Shown piece after piece: positions 1 through 9,653 of a stretch of 64,000 nt of DNA. The DNA is taken from positions 95,925 through 159,924 of the forward strand of contig CAMCOS010000001.1 of assembly GCA_945876565.1 (NCBI GenBank), written 5' to 3'. The DNA is from Lautropia mirabilis. GTDB taxonomy: Bacteria; Pseudomonadota; Gammaproteobacteria; Burkholderiales; Burkholderiaceae_B. Below the pieces are notes generated by a model. The model was not told the origin of the DNA. It searched no databases and saw only the letters and a program-made list of their open reading frames with translations. Positions within the stretch are counted from its first letter, which is position 1; every line of letters begins with the position of its first letter. A program made the translations under genes and the position numbers.

Positions 1-927
1 AAAGCCCTCGCCGGCCTATGCGAGCACGGCCAGGTCGACTTTCAGGAATGCACTCATATCCAGACTGAGATTCAGACCATTAGTTTCAAGGACGGTCGCG
101 ACCTGAATGCGCTCGAAAAAGTCGGCGCTGACTGGACGGCGCGGGCAGCACTGGCACTGGAACGTCGAAAGCAGGCAGAGCCGCCTCTGCGCTCGGCCGA
201 GAAGCAGGTTGCCGCCAAGGAGCAGCAGGCAAGGGCACTGAGAGTCCGGCGCAACACTGCGGCGCTGGAGCAGGATCGCGGGCAACGTCTGCTTGAGGAA
301 CTCGAACGCTGGGAGAAAGCCTCCGGCTCGCCGGAAGCCGCAGATCAACTGGAAAAGTCGATTGCCCGCAGCGCTGAAATCGAACAGAGCATCAATGCCG
401 CGCGAGTGCAGCTCGCGACGCTCCAGCACGAAAGGTCTGCCCGTGAAAAATCGCTAGGTAAGTTGACCGATCTGCTCGTGCAGGAACTGCTTTCGAAGGA
501 AGCCGTCGGCGTCCTGGAGGTACGCGATGAAACCCGGCCATTCCGCCTTTCGCTCCGTGGTGGAGAAGCCTTCCGCGTGTTGGAAATCCTGATTGGCGAC
601 TTGGTATGCCTGCTCGACGCCAGCAACCCGGCCAGCGCCTTCCCCGGCCTGCTGATCCACGATTGCCCGCGCGAAGCCGACATGGGGCCGCGGCCCTACC
701 GCGATTACCTCCACTTGATCGAGCGCATCGAGCGTGAGGCGTACGGTGATGCTGCACCATTCCAGTACATTGTCACCACCACCACACCGCCGCCCGAATC
801 TCTTCAGGACGAGCCGTACCTGCGCTTGACACTTGATCCGAGTCACGACGAGGAGTTGCTGTTTGGGCGGCGGTTCAGAACGCAGGTACAAACAGAGCCC
901 CTTCAACCGGCAGAGCGGCAGACATGA
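1..927 (+). CDS. SMC/ABC-like coiled-coil ATPase, C-terminal part (5' truncated by window edge)
   Basis: Frame 1 is open from base 1 to TGA at 925-927. Long Glu/Arg/Gln-rich coiled coil, then GLLIHDCPREADMG (Walker-B/D-loop-like) and a C-terminal TTTTPPP...LTLDPSHDEELLFGRRF. The ORF track lists only the internal GTG start at 406. Confidence 0.7.
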   Translation, partial: KALAGLCEHGQVDFQECTHIQTEIQTISFKDGRDLNALEKVGADWTARAALALERRKQAEPPLRSAEKQVAAKEQQARALRVRRNTAALEQDRGQRLLEELERWEKASGSPEAADQLEKSIARSAEIEQSINAARVQLATLQHERSAREKSLGKLTDLLVQELLSKEAVGVLEVRDETRPFRLSLRGGEAFRVLEILIGDLVCLLDASNPASAFPGLLIHDCPREADMGPRPYRDYLHLIERIEREAYGDAAPFQYIVTTTTPPPESLQDEPYLRLTLDPSHDEELLFGRRFRTQVQTEPLQPAERQT

Positions 928-3900
928 CCATCATTCAGGCGAAATATCAACAGCTGGCTCCGCGAAGCGACTTCCTGAGCGATGTCGTTGTATTGGCACA
1001 GGCATGGAAGAAGACCCATACGGCAATCCGGAAACACAACTGGTACGCCGATATGCTGGAGCTTGATTGCTCAACGGTCGACCTTCAACGCCAGCTAGGT
1101 ATATGGGCTGAAGCTGTGACCCACAAGAATTTCGCGCCTGACTTCATGCGGTTGGTGCCTGCGCCGAAGAATTCACGATGGGAGTTCCCGACTGACCCTG
1201 AAAAGATTCAACTCGATGTGCTGGATATTCTCAGTACAGATGCAGAGCGCCTTCGGAAGCATGATCAAAACATTCAGTTTGATGCTTGGCGTGTAGCGGA
1301 GACTGGGGCGAAAGGTAATACGACAAGGGAGCAAAAACTTCGTCCCCTTGCGCATCTCTCCATCCGGGATCAGACCTTGGCGACCGCTGTGATGCTCTGC
1401 TTGGCAGACGCGGTGGAAAGTGCTCAAGGAGACACATCTGAACGAGACGGTATCAAAGCCCAGAGAGCAGGTATTTTTAGCTATGGCAACCGCTTGCATT
1501 GCCGATGGGATTCGTCCACCAAACCTCGCCCACGAGCATGTTTCGGCTGGGGAAACTCACGCACCTATAGCCAGTACTTTCAGGACTATCGGGTGTTTCT
1601 GGCGCGGCCACGCGGGGTTTGTGCAGAACTGGCCACGCAATTACCGGCCGGGCGTGAGCTCTACGTGGTTTCGCTGGACATCAAGTCGTTCTTCGATCAG
1701 GTTGATCGCACTGCGCTTGTCGGCCAGCTCAAGCAGCTCTATGCCGAATTTGCCGAAAGCTTCGGCCTTCCGGCTTCACTCTTGGCAGACGATGAATTCT
1801 GGAAGATAGCCGAGCGCATATTTTCATGGCAATGGGAATCGGCGGATCAACAGTATGCGCCGTTAATTTCACCCGACTCCCCGTTGCCGACGGGTCTGCC
1901 ACAAGGATTGATTGCATCAGGCTTCCTGGCCAACGCTTACATGATTGGCTTTGACCGTTTGATGGGCGAGGCACTCAATGCCTTGAGCCCTGAAAATGAC
2001 TTCATCATCCGAGACTATTGTCGCTATGTGGATGATATTCGGTTGGTCGTGGAGGCGCGACATGGCGATGGCGAGGATGCCGAAAAATTGGCGCGTGACA
2101 TCAGTGCTCGGCTTGATGAGCTATTAAAGCGACACATTTTGCAGATTGGCGCCAAGATTCCCCTGGTGTTAAACGATGAGAAGACGGCGGTAACACCGTA
2201 CAGATCGATATCTGCACAAAATAACCTGTCGGCCTTGATGGAGCTTTTGCAGGAAGCAATCAGCGGAACGTTCGATTTGGATTCTCTGGCCCAGGCTGCC
2301 GGTGGGCTTGATGGATTGCTCTGGATGTCTGAACAGTTGGACGATCCTCAGGCGCGGAAGAAGTCGCCGCTGGATCTGGCCAACATTGCAGTGCCCAACA
2401 CAGACGTTCGCGACGATACGGTAAAGCGATTCGTCGCAACCCGCATTGCATCGGCCCTCCGCATGCGCTTGGCGATGACGGATACCGAGGGAAAGGCGGA
2501 CAACGAAGCGGCGATCAATGATGAAGTGAACGCCGGGGCCGCATTGAGCCACGAGTTCGAGGCCATGGCGCGAAAGCTGATCAAGTGTTGGGCGGACAAC
2601 CCTGCCCTGGCCTTGCTGTTGAGAGTTGGATTGGATCTGTTTCCTCACCCCAGACTACTCGGGCCAGTGTTGGATGCGCTCGAAAGCAAGCTATACGCAA
2701 TCGCCAGGAAGGATAACGAGACGGCTTCCCATGAGGTGAAGGTTGCCGAGTATGTGGCCGCGGATCTGTTGCGAGCGGGAGCTTCGGAAACCGGCTACCG
2801 AGAGGATGCCGAATATCCAGACGCTGCTGATATTGGCCAGTATCGGCGCGACCTTGCCATATTTGCTCGACAAGTCTTGATCGAGCGAGAAAGTCATTCA
2901 CCTTGGTATCTCCGACAGCAGGCTCTGCTATTTCTTGCCTCAGTCGGTGATCATTCAGCAGCAACCACGGTATCGTCGGACCACCCTGATAATTATTCTC
3001 GGCTCCATCAGGCGATGCTCTATTCGCCTTGTCGCGATACCGATTTGGAAATTGCACTACCGCTTGCGCTGGTTGGGCAGCAACTCTCACCAGCTCCTGA
3101 CCGTTTCGCGGCTTGGCTAAACGAATGCCTTCGAGCCAGCAGAGATACCGAGGTAATTCGGCGAAGTGTGCTTACGGTGGCGCTCAATCGGCCTGACTTG
3201 ATTCAGGCCGCGATCAAGATAAGAACAGGCAAATCGGCAAGTTGGCGGCAGTTTGTGCCAACTTCGCTGAAGGCGTCACGCAATGGATCCACCAAGAAGT
3301 CGTTGCGGCTCGACAAGGGCGCTCGTTTACCGCTACTGCGGCTGATCTCTGCTCCGTTCAATCCTTTTTCTCAGGAGAACGGGTTGCTCGTGCTGGCGCA
3401 GGCATTGCTGGAGAAACCAGACATCGAGAAGATTCTCGCCGCTGGGTTGCACATCGGCGAAATTGAGGCGACGTGCAAGGATTGGTCACGGATTCAATCA
3501 CTGCCCGAGCACGAGCCGGACTTTCTCGAAATCACATTTGACCGTGACCAGGGGGTTGATCCTCTTTACGAGCCCCCTCCTTGGGTTGAGTCAGATGTGG
3601 CATGGCTCTATGGTTTGGGGAGAATCCTTCGTGCCTGCATTACGGGTGAGTTTGACTTCACGGCGGGACGCTATCTCACGACGGAGGATGCTTCACGATA
3701 TTACGGCCTGCGATCCACGTGGTTCAAAAGGCGGTTTGGATTATTGAACACCGGTCGCGGCCTGCTCGATGAGCCTGCGCCAATCTCGCCATGGCTCTCA
3801 AGTTTATTGTCCGTGTTACTGCAATGGCCGGGTACGGATATCAGGGGAGAGAACGCGGCGAAGCTACTCTGCGCGAAAACCCGCGTCGAAATTCTCGAGT

Positions 3901-4889
3901 CGATTCAGGAACGCATCGCCGTGCAGCGTGCGCTATATGGCGGTCAATCGGGTACGCCTATGTACGTTGTGCCAACTCAGGAGGATCTGCCTCCGGTTGC
4001 ACGACCCATGCGCATCGCAGTGGTTCAACCAATGCTCCCACGTCGGGACCAGTTCAACACCAAAGAACCATGCCGCTGGTCGGGGAAGCTGATGGCCGAA
4101 CATCGCCGCCACTTGGCTGAGGTGTGTCGCCTGACTCACCAGAAGCTGAAGACCTGGGTAAGCGCCCAGAAGGATGGGAAGGAAGACGACCGGAATCGCG
4201 AACCGATGGTTGATCTGATTCTATTTCCTGAACTGTCTGTTCACCCCGAGCACATTTCCCACCTGCGAGCTCTCTCAGATAAGGTTAAGGCATCGATATT
4301 CGTCGGGTTGACCTTTATCCAGCCCCCTAGGCATGCGGCCCCGATCAACCAAGGTTTGTGGCTGATCCGAACTGAAAATCCTGGTGGCGGAAGAACCCTT
4401 CAGTATGCCTGGCAAGGGAAAAAGCACCCGACTTCGCTCGAAGAGAAGATGGGAGTCAAAGGACATCGCCCACATCAGGTTCTGGTGGAGTTCCCTATCG
4501 GCACCCACACGCCAACGCGAGTGGCAGCCGCCATCTGTTACGACGCGACAGACCTGGCTCTGGTGGCTGATTTGCGCGAGCGGTCAGACGTATTTCTGGT
4601 TGCCGCGCTCAACCAGGATGTTCAGACTTTTGACAACATGGTTGCGGCTCTTCATTTCCACATGTACCAGCCTGTCGTACTGGCCAACATGGGCGAATTC
4701 GGTGGATCGACTGCTCAGGCGCCGCTGCCAAAATATGAGCGGCTGATCGCGCATGTCCACGGCGGCAATCAGGTTGCCGTCAGCGTGTTCGAGATAGATC
4801 CCAGTCTATTCAAGACGATTGCCAAGCCAAAACCCACACATGACTTGAAGACGCCTCCCGCTGGATACAAAGGCCGGCCACCATGTTGA
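924..4889 (+). CDS. Reverse transcriptase-nitrilase fusion, UG/DRT class-1-like defence RT (1321 aa)
   Basis: RT motif A (SLDIKSFFDQVD), motif B (PTGLPQGLIASGFLANAYM), YVDD box (codons 2025-2036). C-terminal carbon-nitrogen hydrolase: ILFPELSVHPEH (Glu codon 4230-4232) and AAICYDATD (Cys codon 4536-4538). Confidence 0.9.
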   Translation: MTIIQAKYQQLAPRSDFLSDVVVLAQAWKKTHTAIRKHNWYADMLELDCSTVDLQRQLGIWAEAVTHKNFAPDFMRLVPAPKNSRWEFPTDPEKIQLDVLDILSTDAERLRKHDQNIQFDAWRVAETGAKGNTTREQKLRPLAHLSIRDQTLATAVMLCLADAVESAQGDTSERDGIKAQRAGIFSYGNRLHCRWDSSTKPRPRACFGWGNSRTYSQYFQDYRVFLARPRGVCAELATQLPAGRELYVVSLDIKSFFDQVDRTALVGQLKQLYAEFAESFGLPASLLADDEFWKIAERIFSWQWESADQQYAPLISPDSPLPTGLPQGLIASGFLANAYMIGFDRLMGEALNALSPENDFIIRDYCRYVDDIRLVVEARHGDGEDAEKLARDISARLDELLKRHILQIGAKIPLVLNDEKTAVTPYRSISAQNNLSALMELLQEAISGTFDLDSLAQAAGGLDGLLWMSEQLDDPQARKKSPLDLANIAVPNTDVRDDTVKRFVATRIASALRMRLAMTDTEGKADNEAAINDEVNAGAALSHEFEAMARKLIKCWADNPALALLLRVGLDLFPHPRLLGPVLDALESKLYAIARKDNETASHEVKVAEYVAADLLRAGASETGYREDAEYPDAADIGQYRRDLAIFARQVLIERESHSPWYLRQQALLFLASVGDHSAATTVSSDHPDNYSRLHQAMLYSPCRDTDLEIALPLALVGQQLSPAPDRFAAWLNECLRASRDTEVIRRSVLTVALNRPDLIQAAIKIRTGKSASWRQFVPTSLKASRNGSTKKSLRLDKGARLPLLRLISAPFNPFSQENGLLVLAQALLEKPDIEKILAAGLHIGEIEATCKDWSRIQSLPEHEPDFLEITFDRDQGVDPLYEPPPWVESDVAWLYGLGRILRACITGEFDFTAGRYLTTEDASRYYGLRSTWFKRRFGLLNTGRGLLDEPAPISPWLSSLLSVLLQWPGTDIRGENAAKLLCAKTRVEILESIQERIAVQRALYGGQSGTPMYVVPTQEDLPPVARPMRIAVVQPMLPRRDQFNTKEPCRWSGKLMAEHRRHLAEVCRLTHQKLKTWVSAQKDGKEDDRNREPMVDLILFPELSVHPEHISHLRALSDKVKASIFVGLTFIQPPRHAAPINQGLWLIRTENPGGGRTLQYAWQGKKHPTSLEEKMGVKGHRPHQVLVEFPIGTHTPTRVAAAICYDATDLALVADLRERSDVFLVAALNQDVQTFDNMVAALHFHMYQPVVLANMGEFGGSTAQAPLPKYERLIAHVHGGNQVAVSVFEIDPSLFKTIAKPKPTHDLKTPPAGYKGRPPC

Positions 4890-4941: not shown

Positions 4942-5658
4942 ATGACCCAAGAAACCACCCTGAGAATTTACAACGTTTATTGCGATGAGTCGTGCCACTT
5001 GGAGCACGACGGGCAGCCCATCATGGCGTTTGGCGCAACTTGGTGCCCCAAGGACGAGGCGCACCGGCTGGCCACCGAACTCAGGGACATCAAGAGTCGT
5101 CATCGCGCGCGAGGCGAACTCAAGTGGTCAAAAATTTCAGCGGCACGTCTTCCGTTCTACCTGGAGCTGGTCGACTGGTTTTTAGCCGAGCAGCCGCTGC
5201 ATTTTCGTGGCCTGGTTGTGCTGGACAAGCAGAATCTTGATCATGCGTCATTCAATCAGGGTGATCACGACGTCTTTTATTACAAAATGCAGTTCTCGCT
5301 ACTGAACAAAATATTGAGCCCCGATAGCCGGTATGCGATATATCTGGATGTCAAGGACACCAGAAGCCGCCTCAAACTCAAGAAACTGAAAGAGGTGCTG
5401 TGCAATAACGTGTATGACTTCACCAGCGACATGATTGGTCATATCCAGAACATTCACTCTCATGAATCTGAGCTGATGCAGGTGGCCGACTTTCTGACCG
5501 GGGCACTGGCCTATCGACATCGAGGGCTATCCGGAAATCCCGCCAAAATGCAGGTGATCGAGCATCTCGAAACCCGTTGGGGACGGTCGCTCTTGCAGGC
5601 GACCTCGTTACGAGAGCAGAAGCTCAATATTTTCCTTTTCCGTCCAAGGCAGGCATGA
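4942..5658 (+). CDS. DUF3800 domain protein (RNase H-like fold family)
   Basis: N-terminal YNVYCDESCHL, GELKWSKI, YLDVKDTRS and C-terminal SELMQVADFLTGAL are typical DUF3800 motifs. Confidence 0.8.
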   Translation: MTQETTLRIYNVYCDESCHLEHDGQPIMAFGATWCPKDEAHRLATELRDIKSRHRARGELKWSKISAARLPFYLELVDWFLAEQPLHFRGLVVLDKQNLDHASFNQGDHDVFYYKMQFSLLNKILSPDSRYAIYLDVKDTRSRLKLKKLKEVLCNNVYDFTSDMIGHIQNIHSHESELMQVADFLTGALAYRHRGLSGNPAKMQVIEHLETRWGRSLLQATSLREQKLNIFLFRPRQA

Positions 5659-5659
5659 C

Positions 5660-6136
5660 ATGGCCGCACATCCGACATGGCTGCCCGTAATATTTCCGAT
5701 GTCGCCTTGGTCAGAAGCAGTGATGGAAGCGCTTTATGCAATTTTCCGCCGCGACTTCGTCGACAACCCGGCGAGTTATCGAGGACACGGCGTATGGTTC
5801 TTCCCGGAAAAGGATCGCGGCAAGGAAAACATCTTCTGGCATTTGGTGGAGCGGGACGACAAGGGGACTGGCGCTCGCCTCCCGGATTTCCGTCGTTCTG
5901 AGAGATTGCCTTGGGCACGGCCAATGCTGGACAACCTGGGCCAGCCTGAAATTCTGGATTGGGACTATGCGGAAGGCGACAAAAGCATCCACACGTACGT
6001 ATGGCTCAAGGATTTCGACTATTTGATCGTGATGAAGAAGTACCCGAACGGGCAGCGCCGGTTGATAACGGCGTACTACGTCGATTACGAAAATACCCGC
6101 CGGAAACTACGGAAAAAATATGAGGGGCGGGTTTAG
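5660..6136 (+). CDS. Small protein, possibly BECR/RelE-like nuclease fold; family not securely assigned
   Basis: 158-aa ORF starting 1 nt after the DUF3800 stop. C-terminal DYLIVMKKYPNGQRRLITAYYVDYENTRRKLRKKYEGR resembles BECR-type toxin-like domains. An internal ATG at 5699 is an alternative start. Confidence 0.5.
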   Translation: MAAHPTWLPVIFPMSPWSEAVMEALYAIFRRDFVDNPASYRGHGVWFFPEKDRGKENIFWHLVERDDKGTGARLPDFRRSERLPWARPMLDNLGQPEILDWDYAEGDKSIHTYVWLKDFDYLIVMKKYPNGQRRLITAYYVDYENTRRKLRKKYEGRV

Positions 6137-6243: not shown

Positions 6244-7023
6244 GTGTTCAACAGAGCCGGGGGGCGCATGCTCTCGGAGTTGAAGCTGCTGACACTGGCC
6301 CAGCTGGAGAAGGCCGCCATTGATTCCGGCTTTGATGTTGTTGGCGGGCTTGCCAGCAGGCTGATGTCGTTTCGTAGCAGCCAGTGTCCGCTGAAGGTTT
6401 GGCTCGGCATTATGGATGCTCGGCCACTGGTAGGCCTTTCCATGGCGAATGTTGCGGCCGAGATGGATCGTCTATCGATCTCAGCTCCTTTACCAGTTGA
6501 AGGTTGCCATGCATGGATCACCGCTGCGGATTTCGTTGATCTTGATCACTTGCTCGGTCGCGCTTTTGCACTATCACGAGCCCTTCCGAATCAGTTGCTC
6601 GAATCGTGGGAGCACCAGGTTCAAACGCTTTCTGCCACTGAACGTGAATCGGTTGTCCGCCAACGCGTAGGACAGGAGTTGTTTCGGGAGGGACTCCTGG
6701 CGCTCTGGGCTGGGCGTTGCGCGGTGACAGGTTTGGACGAACCCGTGCTGCTACGCGCCAGCCACGCCAAGCCGTGGAAGGATGCAAATGATGCAGAGCG
6801 CCTCGACGTCTACAATGGCCTGCTACTTGCGGCACACTTGGATGCAGCCTTCGACAAAGGCCTGATCACTGTGGATGAGAAGGGCATCGTCGTTCCAAGC
6901 CCAACATTGTCGCAACTGTCACTCCAGATACTTGGCCTGACCAGCGATCGGTCGATTGTGCATCTACGTTCCCAGCATCATCCCTATATGCGATGGCATC
7001 GGGAACATGTATTCCGGAAATGA
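6244..7023 (+). CDS. HNH endonuclease (HNH_2-like)
   Basis: GRCAVTGLDEPVLLRASHAKPWKDAN...LDVYNGLLLAAHLDAAFDKGLI is a classic HNH_2 core. GTG start at 6244 or ATG at 6268. Confidence 0.85.
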   Translation: MFNRAGGRMLSELKLLTLAQLEKAAIDSGFDVVGGLASRLMSFRSSQCPLKVWLGIMDARPLVGLSMANVAAEMDRLSISAPLPVEGCHAWITAADFVDLDHLLGRAFALSRALPNQLLESWEHQVQTLSATERESVVRQRVGQELFREGLLALWAGRCAVTGLDEPVLLRASHAKPWKDANDAERLDVYNGLLLAAHLDAAFDKGLITVDEKGIVVPSPTLSQLSLQILGLTSDRSIVHLRSQHHPYMRWHREHVFRK

Positions 7024-7236: not shown

Positions 7237-7824
7237 ATGCTACTGATGATCGACAATTACGATTCATTCACATACAACTTGGTGCAGTATTTTGGTGAAT
7301 TAGGCGAAGATGTTTGCGTATACCGCAACGATCAGGTAACGATAGAGGAAATTGAGAGCCTCCAGCCTGATCATATTTGCGTCTCACCCGGACCCTGCTC
7401 GCCTGCTGAAGCGGGTATTTCGGTGCCTTTGATCAAGCATTTCGCAGGCAAACTGCCGATTCTGGGGGTTTGCCTCGGGCACCAGTCGATTGGGGCCGCA
7501 TTTGGGGGGCGGATTGTTCGCGCCAAAGAGCTAATGCACGGCAAAACCTCCGACATCACCCACTTGGGCACAGACGTGTTTGCCAACTTGCCATCCCCAT
7601 ACACAGTCACGCGGTACCATTCTCTAGCCATTGAACGCGACACTTTGCCTCAGTGCCTGGTGGTGACAGCCGAAACACCGGACGGTGAAATCATGGGCAT
7701 CCGGCATCGGGATCTACCGATCTATGGCGTGCAGTTTCACCCAGAGTCGATCTTGACCGAGCACGGCCATGCGCTCTTGCAGAACTTTCTAAAACTGACA
7801 CACCCGATTGCCGCGGCAGCCTAA
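7237..7824 (+). CDS. trpG: Anthranilate synthase component II (glutamine amidotransferase)
   Basis: [32 protein letters not shown] motifs. Confidence 0.97.
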
Positions 7825-7836
7825 CCGGAGACAGAC

Positions 7837-8868
7837 ATGACCATTACACCGAGTCAAGCGCTGTCTCGCTGCATTGAGCACCGGGAGATTTTTCATGATG
7901 AGATGCTGCACCTGATGCGCATGTTAATGCGCGGTGAAATGTCACCCACGATGGCAGCGGCCATCATCATGGGGTTGCGCGTCAAAAAAGAAACCATTGG
8001 TGAAATCACGGCGGCCGCCACGGTCATGCGCGAATTTGCCACGCCCGTAAAAACCACAAATGCGGCTGATTTGCTTGACCTGTGCGGCACAGGTGGCGAC
8101 GGCTCCAGCACCTTCAACATTTCGACCACCGCCATGTTTGTCGCCGCAGCAGCCGGTGTACCCGTGGCCAAACATGGCGGACGCAGCGCATCATCTCCAA
8201 GCGGAAGCGTCGACATCATCGAAGCACTTGGTGGGCGTGTCGATCTCACACCCGAGCAGGTGGCGCAATGCATCAGCGAAATCGGCATCGGGTTTATGTT
8301 TGCGCAGGCCCATCACAGCGCCATGAAGCACGTTGCACCAATACGCAAGGAACTTGGCGTTCGCACGATGTTCAACATCCTAGGGCCACTGACCAATCCG
8401 GCTGGCGCAAAAAACCAGATGATGGGCGTTTTCCATCCTGACCTCGTTGGCATTCAAGTGCGCGTGCTCCAGTCACTTGGCTCGCGCCACGTTCTGATCG
8501 TTCATGGTCGCGATGGCATGGATGAAGCATCACTGGGCGCAGCCACCATGGTGGGTGAACTCAAAGATGGCGAAGTGCATGAGTATGAAATTCACCCAGA
8601 AGACTTTGGCTTGACCATGATGTCAAACCGAAGCATCCGCATATCCACCAAAGAAGAGTCCAAGGCACTGGTGCTAGAGGCACTGGGCAACACCCCAGGC
8701 GCTGCACGTGACATCGTGGCCTACAATGCAGGCCTTGCGATCTATGCAGGCAACCGGGCCAGCAGCATGGCCGATGGCATCAAACAGGCGTTCGACCTCA
8801 TTGCCAGTGGTGCTGCACGTGACAAACTTGAGCAATTCTGTGCGCTCACTAGGAAATTGACTTCATGA
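7837..8868 (+). CDS. trpD: Anthranilate phosphoribosyltransferase
   Basis: [29 protein letters not shown] motifs; follows trpG. Confidence 0.97.
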
Positions 8869-9653
8869 GCAACATTCTGGACGAGATACTGGCTGTCAAG
8901 GCCGAGCAAGTCAAAGCGGCGCGCCAACTGCGTAGCGAGGCAGATTTGTTGCGCGAGGCGCAGGCGCGCCAGGATTTGCGCGGATTTGCCGCTGCCATCG
9001 AGGACAAGATCGCTAGCGGCAAACCGGCCGTCATTGCGGAAATCAAAAAAGCCTCGCCCTCCAAAGGGGTGATTCGAGAGGATTTCCATCCGGCGCAGAT
9101 TGCAGCCTCCTACGCGGCCGGTGGTGCAACTTGCCTATCGGTACTCACTGATGTGAAATTCTTTCAAGGCTCGCATGACTATCTACGCCAGGCCCGTGCG
9201 GCGTGCCCGCTGCCGGTGCTGCGCAAAGATTTCATGATCGATCCATACCAGGTCATCTCGGCTCGCGCCATGGGTGCGGACTGCATTCTGTTGATCGCTG
9301 CGGCGCTTGAAACAACCCGCATGCAAGAGCTGGAAGCTTGCGCCATGGAGTTGTCACTCGATGTGCTCGTCGAAGTTCATAACGCTCAAGAACTGGAACA
9401 GACGTTAACCCTCAAAACCAACTTGCTGGGCATCAACAACCGCAACCTAAAGACGTTTGAAGTGTCGCTAGACACCACGCTTGGCCTGCTTGATCAGATC
9501 CCGACTGGCAAGCGTGTGGTCACCGAAAGCGGGATTTTGTTGCGAGAAGACGTAAAACTGATGCGTGAGCACGGCGTCAATGCATTTCTGGTTGGTGAGG
9601 CCTTTATGCGGGCACCTGATCCTGGCACAGCATTGGCAGAGTTGTTTTTTTAA
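8865..9653 (+). CDS. trpC: Indole-3-glycerol phosphate synthase
   Basis: [38 protein letters not shown] overlap with trpD. Confidence 0.97.

Follow-up and report, generated by a model that had tools for sequence, protein, structure and literature searches.

The Lamassu protein LmuB recognizes DNA ends and then sets LmuA free, and PrrC is encoded inside type Ic restriction operons. The reverse transcriptase (RT) DRT1 (UG1, a class 3 DRT; PDB 9yfd) is presented, in the passages of PMC13275509 drawn on here, as a single gene that is sometimes joined by the transmembrane gene drt1b; alone, it protects E. coli, and S402 of the solved protein is the priming serine. ARMADA type I is described in main-text passages of a preprint (PMC12458937) as a system of YprA-like, BrxHII-like and PglX-like genes. 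The same passages place ARMADA YprA closest to Druantia and report direct protection, not involving suicide, by an ARMADA type II cluster that needs all four of its genes. DRT1, ARMADA and LmuB-type ATPases are each already known. The locus described here, from Lautropia mirabilis, was analyzed in a window of 64,000 nucleotides (C1:95925-159924 of the source genome), and the features under study are collected in table 1.

Table 1. Features at the beginning of the window (window positions, with strand and the evidence for each assignment)
Feature	Position	Strand	Evidence
SMC-like ATPase, C-terminal part (residues 362-669); 5'-open frame of the window	1..927	+	frames and upstream DNA; motif columns; fold search
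ATGA stop/start overlap, ATPase/RT	924..927	+	direct reading
DRT1-type reverse transcriptase-nitrilase, 1321 aa; frame of the window	924..4889	+	PADLOC Drt1a; PDB 9yfd; motif alignment
Payload-slot gene: DUF3800, PADLOC PDC-M04A	4942..5658	+	PADLOC and domain search
Payload-slot gene: PADLOC PDC-M04B	5660..6136	+	PADLOC
HNH endonuclease, usual last operon gene	6244..7023	+	HNH_2 match

We found that the operon runs in the order YprA helicase, BrxHII/DpdE-like SNF2 helicase, PglX-like methyltransferase, ATPase, payload slot and HNH endonuclease. Judged from its genes, it is likely an anti-phage operon of ARMADA-I-like type whose fourth gene, an LmuB-like ATPase, is optional, and in which the slot before the HNH gene would hold exchangeable defense modules. 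The slot here carries a DRT1 RT-nitrilase, probably acting as a self-sufficient abortive layer, together with the PDC-M04 pair. The YprA-like, BrxHII-like and PglX-like genes stand in the same order as in ARMADA type I, but the SMC-like ATPase, the variable payload slot and the terminal HNH gene are extra, none of them appearing in the main-text passages of PMC12458937 drawn on here. Unlike the YprA of ARMADA type I in those passages, the YprA of this operon has lost the C-terminal Vsr-type nuclease motif (DGPxH; C-terminus at C1 about 87000-87507), and the locus is therefore filed as ARMADA-I-like. Across 61 related YprA C-termini the motif was kept in 31 and absent in 30 including our own, the latter containing one that was only slightly altered (L045) and two that were not comparable (L040 and L051); absence of the HNH gene tracked neither state of the motif. 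The best PADLOC match of the YprA protein was DruE, as expected from the kinship with Druantia that the preprint passages give for ARMADA YprA.

The island that contains the operon is about 32 kb long and separates trpE (C1:69192-70718) from trpG-trpD-trpC (window 7237-9653; trpC was assigned by position and sequence). A phage-type integrase gene directly follows trpE. Farther along, still upstream of the window, there are three consecutive Xer-like tyrosine recombinase genes (C1:75578-78727), and a Recombinase-domain gene with two RepB/ParB-like genes (C1:78930-81885) lies just upstream of the YprA gene.

The earlier note on this DNA had taken the open frame at the beginning of the window for an SMC-like ATPase, and a structure model and a fold search bore this out, showing a coiled-coil ABC ATPase of the SMC/Rad50 type. 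With upstream DNA added, the whole gene was recovered (C1:94842-96851, 669 aa); it begins 1083 bases before the window and 13 bases past the methyltransferase stop, and the window itself begins at residue 362. The Walker A motif GHGVGKSS accordingly lies upstream, outside the window, and the signature-like LRGGEA (553-570), the Walker B motif LLIHDCPREAD (649-681) and a hinge-like CxH...CxH (cysteines at 19-21 and 49-51) lie inside it. Among 44 relatives, both tip cysteines were invariant or nearly so, as were the columns of Walker A, of the signature (GGEA) and of Walker B (HDCPREADM); a Q-loop candidate was among the invariant columns. A distant relative (L069, from genome G312) carries a Rad50-like CPIC at the coiled-coil tip, as against CxH...CxH in nearer relatives. 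A broken gene was ruled out, as the frame was open at near full length in 48 of 51 related loci; of the other three, two were cut by contig ends (L007 and L047) and one was rearranged (L051).

The structure was modeled on a relative with 74% identity (L004; 44-row alignment, pLDDT 84.8, pTM 0.70), and the model predicts an ABC head from which a single long coiled coil, antiparallel and with a poorly modeled tip, extends. The nearest full-length folds were YydD and Lamassu LmuB, above Rad50 and SMC heads, with 9a6c_A (Z 30.9 over 490 residues, rmsd 22.6) and 9uxh_F (Z 26.5 over 533 residues, rmsd 24.3) as top matches; the large rmsd values probably arise because coiled coils bend. The ATPase also matched PADLOC LmuB (2.4e-14), and LmuB models matched 41 of the 44 relatives. 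No credible relative came from sequence searches of the PDB, whether the query was the single ATPase or the 44-row profile, and only the fold search provided one; no Pfam family exceeded the threshold for the ATPase (DUF2326 remained below it, E 0.096), and NCBIfam gave no match. The model thus places the ATPase close to the LmuB/YydD-like coiled-coil ABC proteins, with which it would share the head and the single long coiled coil, but its identity to them is only 12-15%. Among the PADLOC matches listed (best 25 per protein), neither LmuA nor LmuC was found for the operon proteins, and none of Wadjet JetA, JetB and JetD for the neighbors.

Related loci (51) were sampled by exact matches to peptide patterns taken from our own ATPase, which leaves distant ATPases under-sampled and makes all rates conditional on the ATPase; they came mostly from beta- and some gammaproteobacteria, and two of them (L024 and L025) represent one organism. 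The PglX-like methyltransferase adjoined the ATPase upstream in 46 of the 47 loci for which 1.5 kb or more of upstream sequence was available. Where at least 6 kb was available, the SNF2 helicase was present in 45/46 and YprA in 44/46; the exceptions were the rearranged L051 and a locus without YprA (L053) whose fetched flank stops at the SNF2 gene. When 399 genomes were sampled evenly across the order, all five other carriers of the ATPase (27-38% identity) had YprA, SNF2, methyltransferase and ATPase in this arrangement; two of them, G223 and G286, seem to belong to the same species as L033 and L026, respectively. A class-wide sample yielded the RT in 1 of 369 genomes, our own, and the ATPase in 2. 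The ATPase further matched eight plasmid records, and the four inspected all read helicase-helicase-methyltransferase-SMC, with HNH next in three; on plasmids, here and below, neighbors were judged by their annotation.

The same operon also exists without the ATPase. The methyltransferase was found in 20 genomes, 6 of them with the ATPase and 8 more that were fetched, the remaining 6 being weaker matches outside the comparison. In the 8 fetched loci without an ATPase hit (L076-L083), neither the ATPase nor the RT was found, the ATPase being judged absent by a purpose-built profile and by the lack of room for it. HNH followed the methyltransferase in 7/7 ATPase-less loci with enough sequence, the two genes being at most about 100 bases apart or overlapping in L076, L077, L081 and L082, and it came next in three of five ATPase-less plasmid operons that were read. 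The ATPase is an optional gene of the ARMADA-I-like operon.

The contents of the slot were far from uniform. Downstream sequence reached 4.5 kb or more past the ATPase in 44 loci, and of these HNH lay within 9.5 kb of the ATPase in 39 and within 500 bp in 14. Elsewhere the slot held a HEC-03 AAA gene with an RNA ligase, GmrSD/HEC-05, PDC-S39, the MkoA kinase-helicase, a UvrD-type helicase, HEPN/RES or Schlafen-AlbA, or it was empty, and these other defense genes mostly preceded the conserved HNH endonuclease. No relative of the M04A gene was found downstream of the ATPase in the 51 loci. In one ATPase-less locus (L078), the gene directly behind the methyltransferase was an AAA gene resembling that of HEC-03.

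By its sequence, the RT in our slot belongs to DRT1 (UG1). It matched PADLOC Drt1a (PDLC03745) with E=0 over residues 4-1315 of 1321, and PDB 9yfd, "Defense-associated reverse transcriptase 1", with E 1.9e-159. Like the DRT1 described in passages of PMC13275509, it falls in the same length class and has both a catalytic YVDD (residues 368-371, window 2025-2036) and a C-terminal nitrilase with the CYDATD cysteine (C1205, window about 4536-4538), the latter kept in the relatives covering that part. Unlike the published form, it stands behind an SMC ATPase in an ARMADA-like operon; the ATPase is not a Drt1b, a candidate ruled out because Drt1b is a transmembrane protein in the same source. S447, within SGTFD/SGPFD, was invariant in all 14 covering rows including our own (L065 duplicates L033); phmmer aligned the surrounding region to 9yfd with gaps, and S447 may correspond to the priming serine S402. 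Because the alignment to the one solved DRT1 falls into two stretches and that protein is shorter (1229 aa), autonomy of our RT is an assumption. No relatives of the RT were found in the viral contigs scanned.

The earlier note had made recurrence in other genomes one measure of the ATPase-RT pair, and the adjacency does recur. DRT1 sequence was detected within 3 kb behind the ATPase in 11 of the 44 loci that extend 4.5 kb or more beyond it, eight times as a whole gene; the incomplete ones were a 50-residue remnant (L011), a split gene (L037) and an interrupted one (L049). In L037 the RT is divided by a trio of Xer-like recombinase genes, of the kind that also lies upstream of our own YprA, whereas it is intact in the near-identical L048. 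The RTs form two lineages, with 51-74% and 59-98% identity within them and at most 39% between them. The lineages cross ATPase clades, as lineage I RTs in L034, L054 and L049 sit beside ATPases about 32% identical to our own. On the ATPase tree, a quick tree with some open forks from which truncated, rearranged or duplicate entries (L007, L047, L051, L065 and L066) were left out, RT presence required at least nine changes and RT lineage at least three. The four loci with the closest ATPases (L004, L005, L006 and L011) retained only start fragments of the RT of about 10-50 codons; these scars indicate that the RT was once present and later disappeared, whereas the reading frame of the ATPase has remained open in all four. 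In L005, L006 and L011 the fragments run into a stretch resembling a methyltransferase tail, and the junctions (L005:2320-2560, L006:11960-12200 and L011:11950-12300) have the look of a recombination between two ARMADA-like operons, located behind the ATPase.

Eight DRT1 loci were also reached without the ATPase query and inspected, three from the order sample (G223, G307 and G340) and five from plasmids (H1-H5). Seven of them had no such SMC ATPase alongside; the one that did, G223, appears to be the species of L033 again. In H5, an annotated AAA ATPase lies two genes before the RT, and it was not among the relatives listed by the ATPase search. Wherever an ARMADA-like locus was found to carry the RT, the ATPase stood directly before it, all of these loci having come from the ATPase query, and the RT was present in 0/7 ATPase-less ARMADA-like loci read through to HNH. 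This restriction to ATPase-bearing loci could reflect some dependence of the RT on the ATPase, seven loci being too few to tell.

The closeness of the two genes had originally suggested more than this. Direct reading confirmed that the ATPase TGA (925-927) and the RT ATG (924-926) share an ATGA, but to regard this overlap as strong evidence of co-translation and stoichiometric expression was an overstatement. Start codons fell within a four-base stop overlap in 12 of 49 same-strand neighbor pairs at most 300 bp apart (C1:66000-159924), including YprA/SNF2 of the ARMADA-like operon and trpD/trpC; the ATPase-RT pair itself is not among the 49, since taking the longest frame mechanically places the ATPase start within the methyltransferase. 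At 11 ATPase-RT junctions (our own, L016, L027, L033, L034, L037, L041, L043, L048, L049 and L054, at mechanical first-start positions), the spacing was -4 in our own and L049, and +4 to +230 in the other nine. The overlap, ordinary in the region and kept at 2 of 11 junctions, is therefore weak evidence for a special link between the two genes. A dedicated two-gene DRT1 subtype, with translational coupling, a fixed ratio and one ATPase-RT complex, is very improbable, even though the overlap itself and the recurrence in 11/44 loci speak for it. Most ATPase loci have no RT, the ATPase remains intact after RT loss, the RT lineages are incongruent with the ATPase tree, and 7/8 inspected DRT1 loci from non-ATPase queries have no such ATPase; a published DRT1, moreover, needs no partner in E. 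coli (PMC13275509). The pair proposed in the earlier note is thus joined and recurring, but it is not a dedicated stoichiometric system, the constant partner of the ATPase being the methyltransferase; from the sequences compared, the pair is modular and not a DRT subtype.

Neither does the other extreme fit well. Simple clustering in a defense island, whereby the RT entered the operon by chance and has no functional or regulatory link beyond co-inheritance, would agree with the free turnover of slot contents and with the recombinase genes upstream of the operon. We consider it improbable, since the same insertion point was used in two ATPase clades and by two RT lineages, and since the RT always points in the operon direction and mostly lies close behind the ATPase, which favors shared expression at least. 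Between these stands Lamassu-like gating, in which the LmuB-like ATPase would sense phage DNA structures and hold or release the slot effector, DRT1 being one interchangeable effector. The full-length fold match of the model to LmuB in nuclease-sequestration and DNA-bound states, the PADLOC LmuB matches of nearly all relatives, and a slot that begins directly behind the ATPase and receives many unrelated effectors are consistent with it. Against it, DRT1, HEC-03, PDC-S39 and MkoA match systems or candidates catalogued on their own, the slot also exists without the ATPase (L078), and many ATPase loci have no payload and HNH only. Gating is unlikely, if less so than chance clustering.

We return to the ARMADA-I-like operon with an optional fourth gene and an exchangeable slot. 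From what was seen directly (gene order, recurrence, payload variety, loss and exchange of the RT, and the SMC/LmuB-like fold) we infer a mechanism in which the ATPase would clamp or scan DNA for the helicase/methyltransferase/nuclease system, HNH would be a nuclease acting in trans, and DRT1 would be a co-expressed, self-sufficient backup, by analogy with PrrC in a restriction operon. The abstract of PMC3874168 describes PrrC as a suicidal enzyme under the control of a restriction system, and it serves here as the model for a backup layer; the proteins are unrelated to ours, and guarding at this locus would be an analogy.

A literature search with partial coverage, in texts exclusive of supplements, returned no paper that describes an SMC ATPase either as part of ARMADA type I or as a neighbor of DRT1. 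The optional LmuB-like ATPase, payload slot and terminal HNH of ARMADA-I-like operons, with DRT1 as repeatedly exchanged cargo, appear to be new as far as the text searched goes. An SMC ATPase and a terminal HNH nuclease are thereby added to a system type that has three genes in the main-text passages of the preprint. The question shifts from the ATPase-RT pair to an operon of restriction-like character that includes a site where abortive-infection modules are exchanged, and it becomes testable whether such modules merely travel with the host system or are connected to its sensor. It is a doubtful, if wider, idea that ARMADA-I-like operons have gained an SMC sensor of the LmuB kind as a universal adaptor, which would watch phage DNA on behalf of the helicase/methyltransferase machine and trigger whichever suicide module is loaded in the slot. 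If it were true, the DRT1, HEPN/RES, GmrSD and kinase modules would be plug-in effectors of one sensor.
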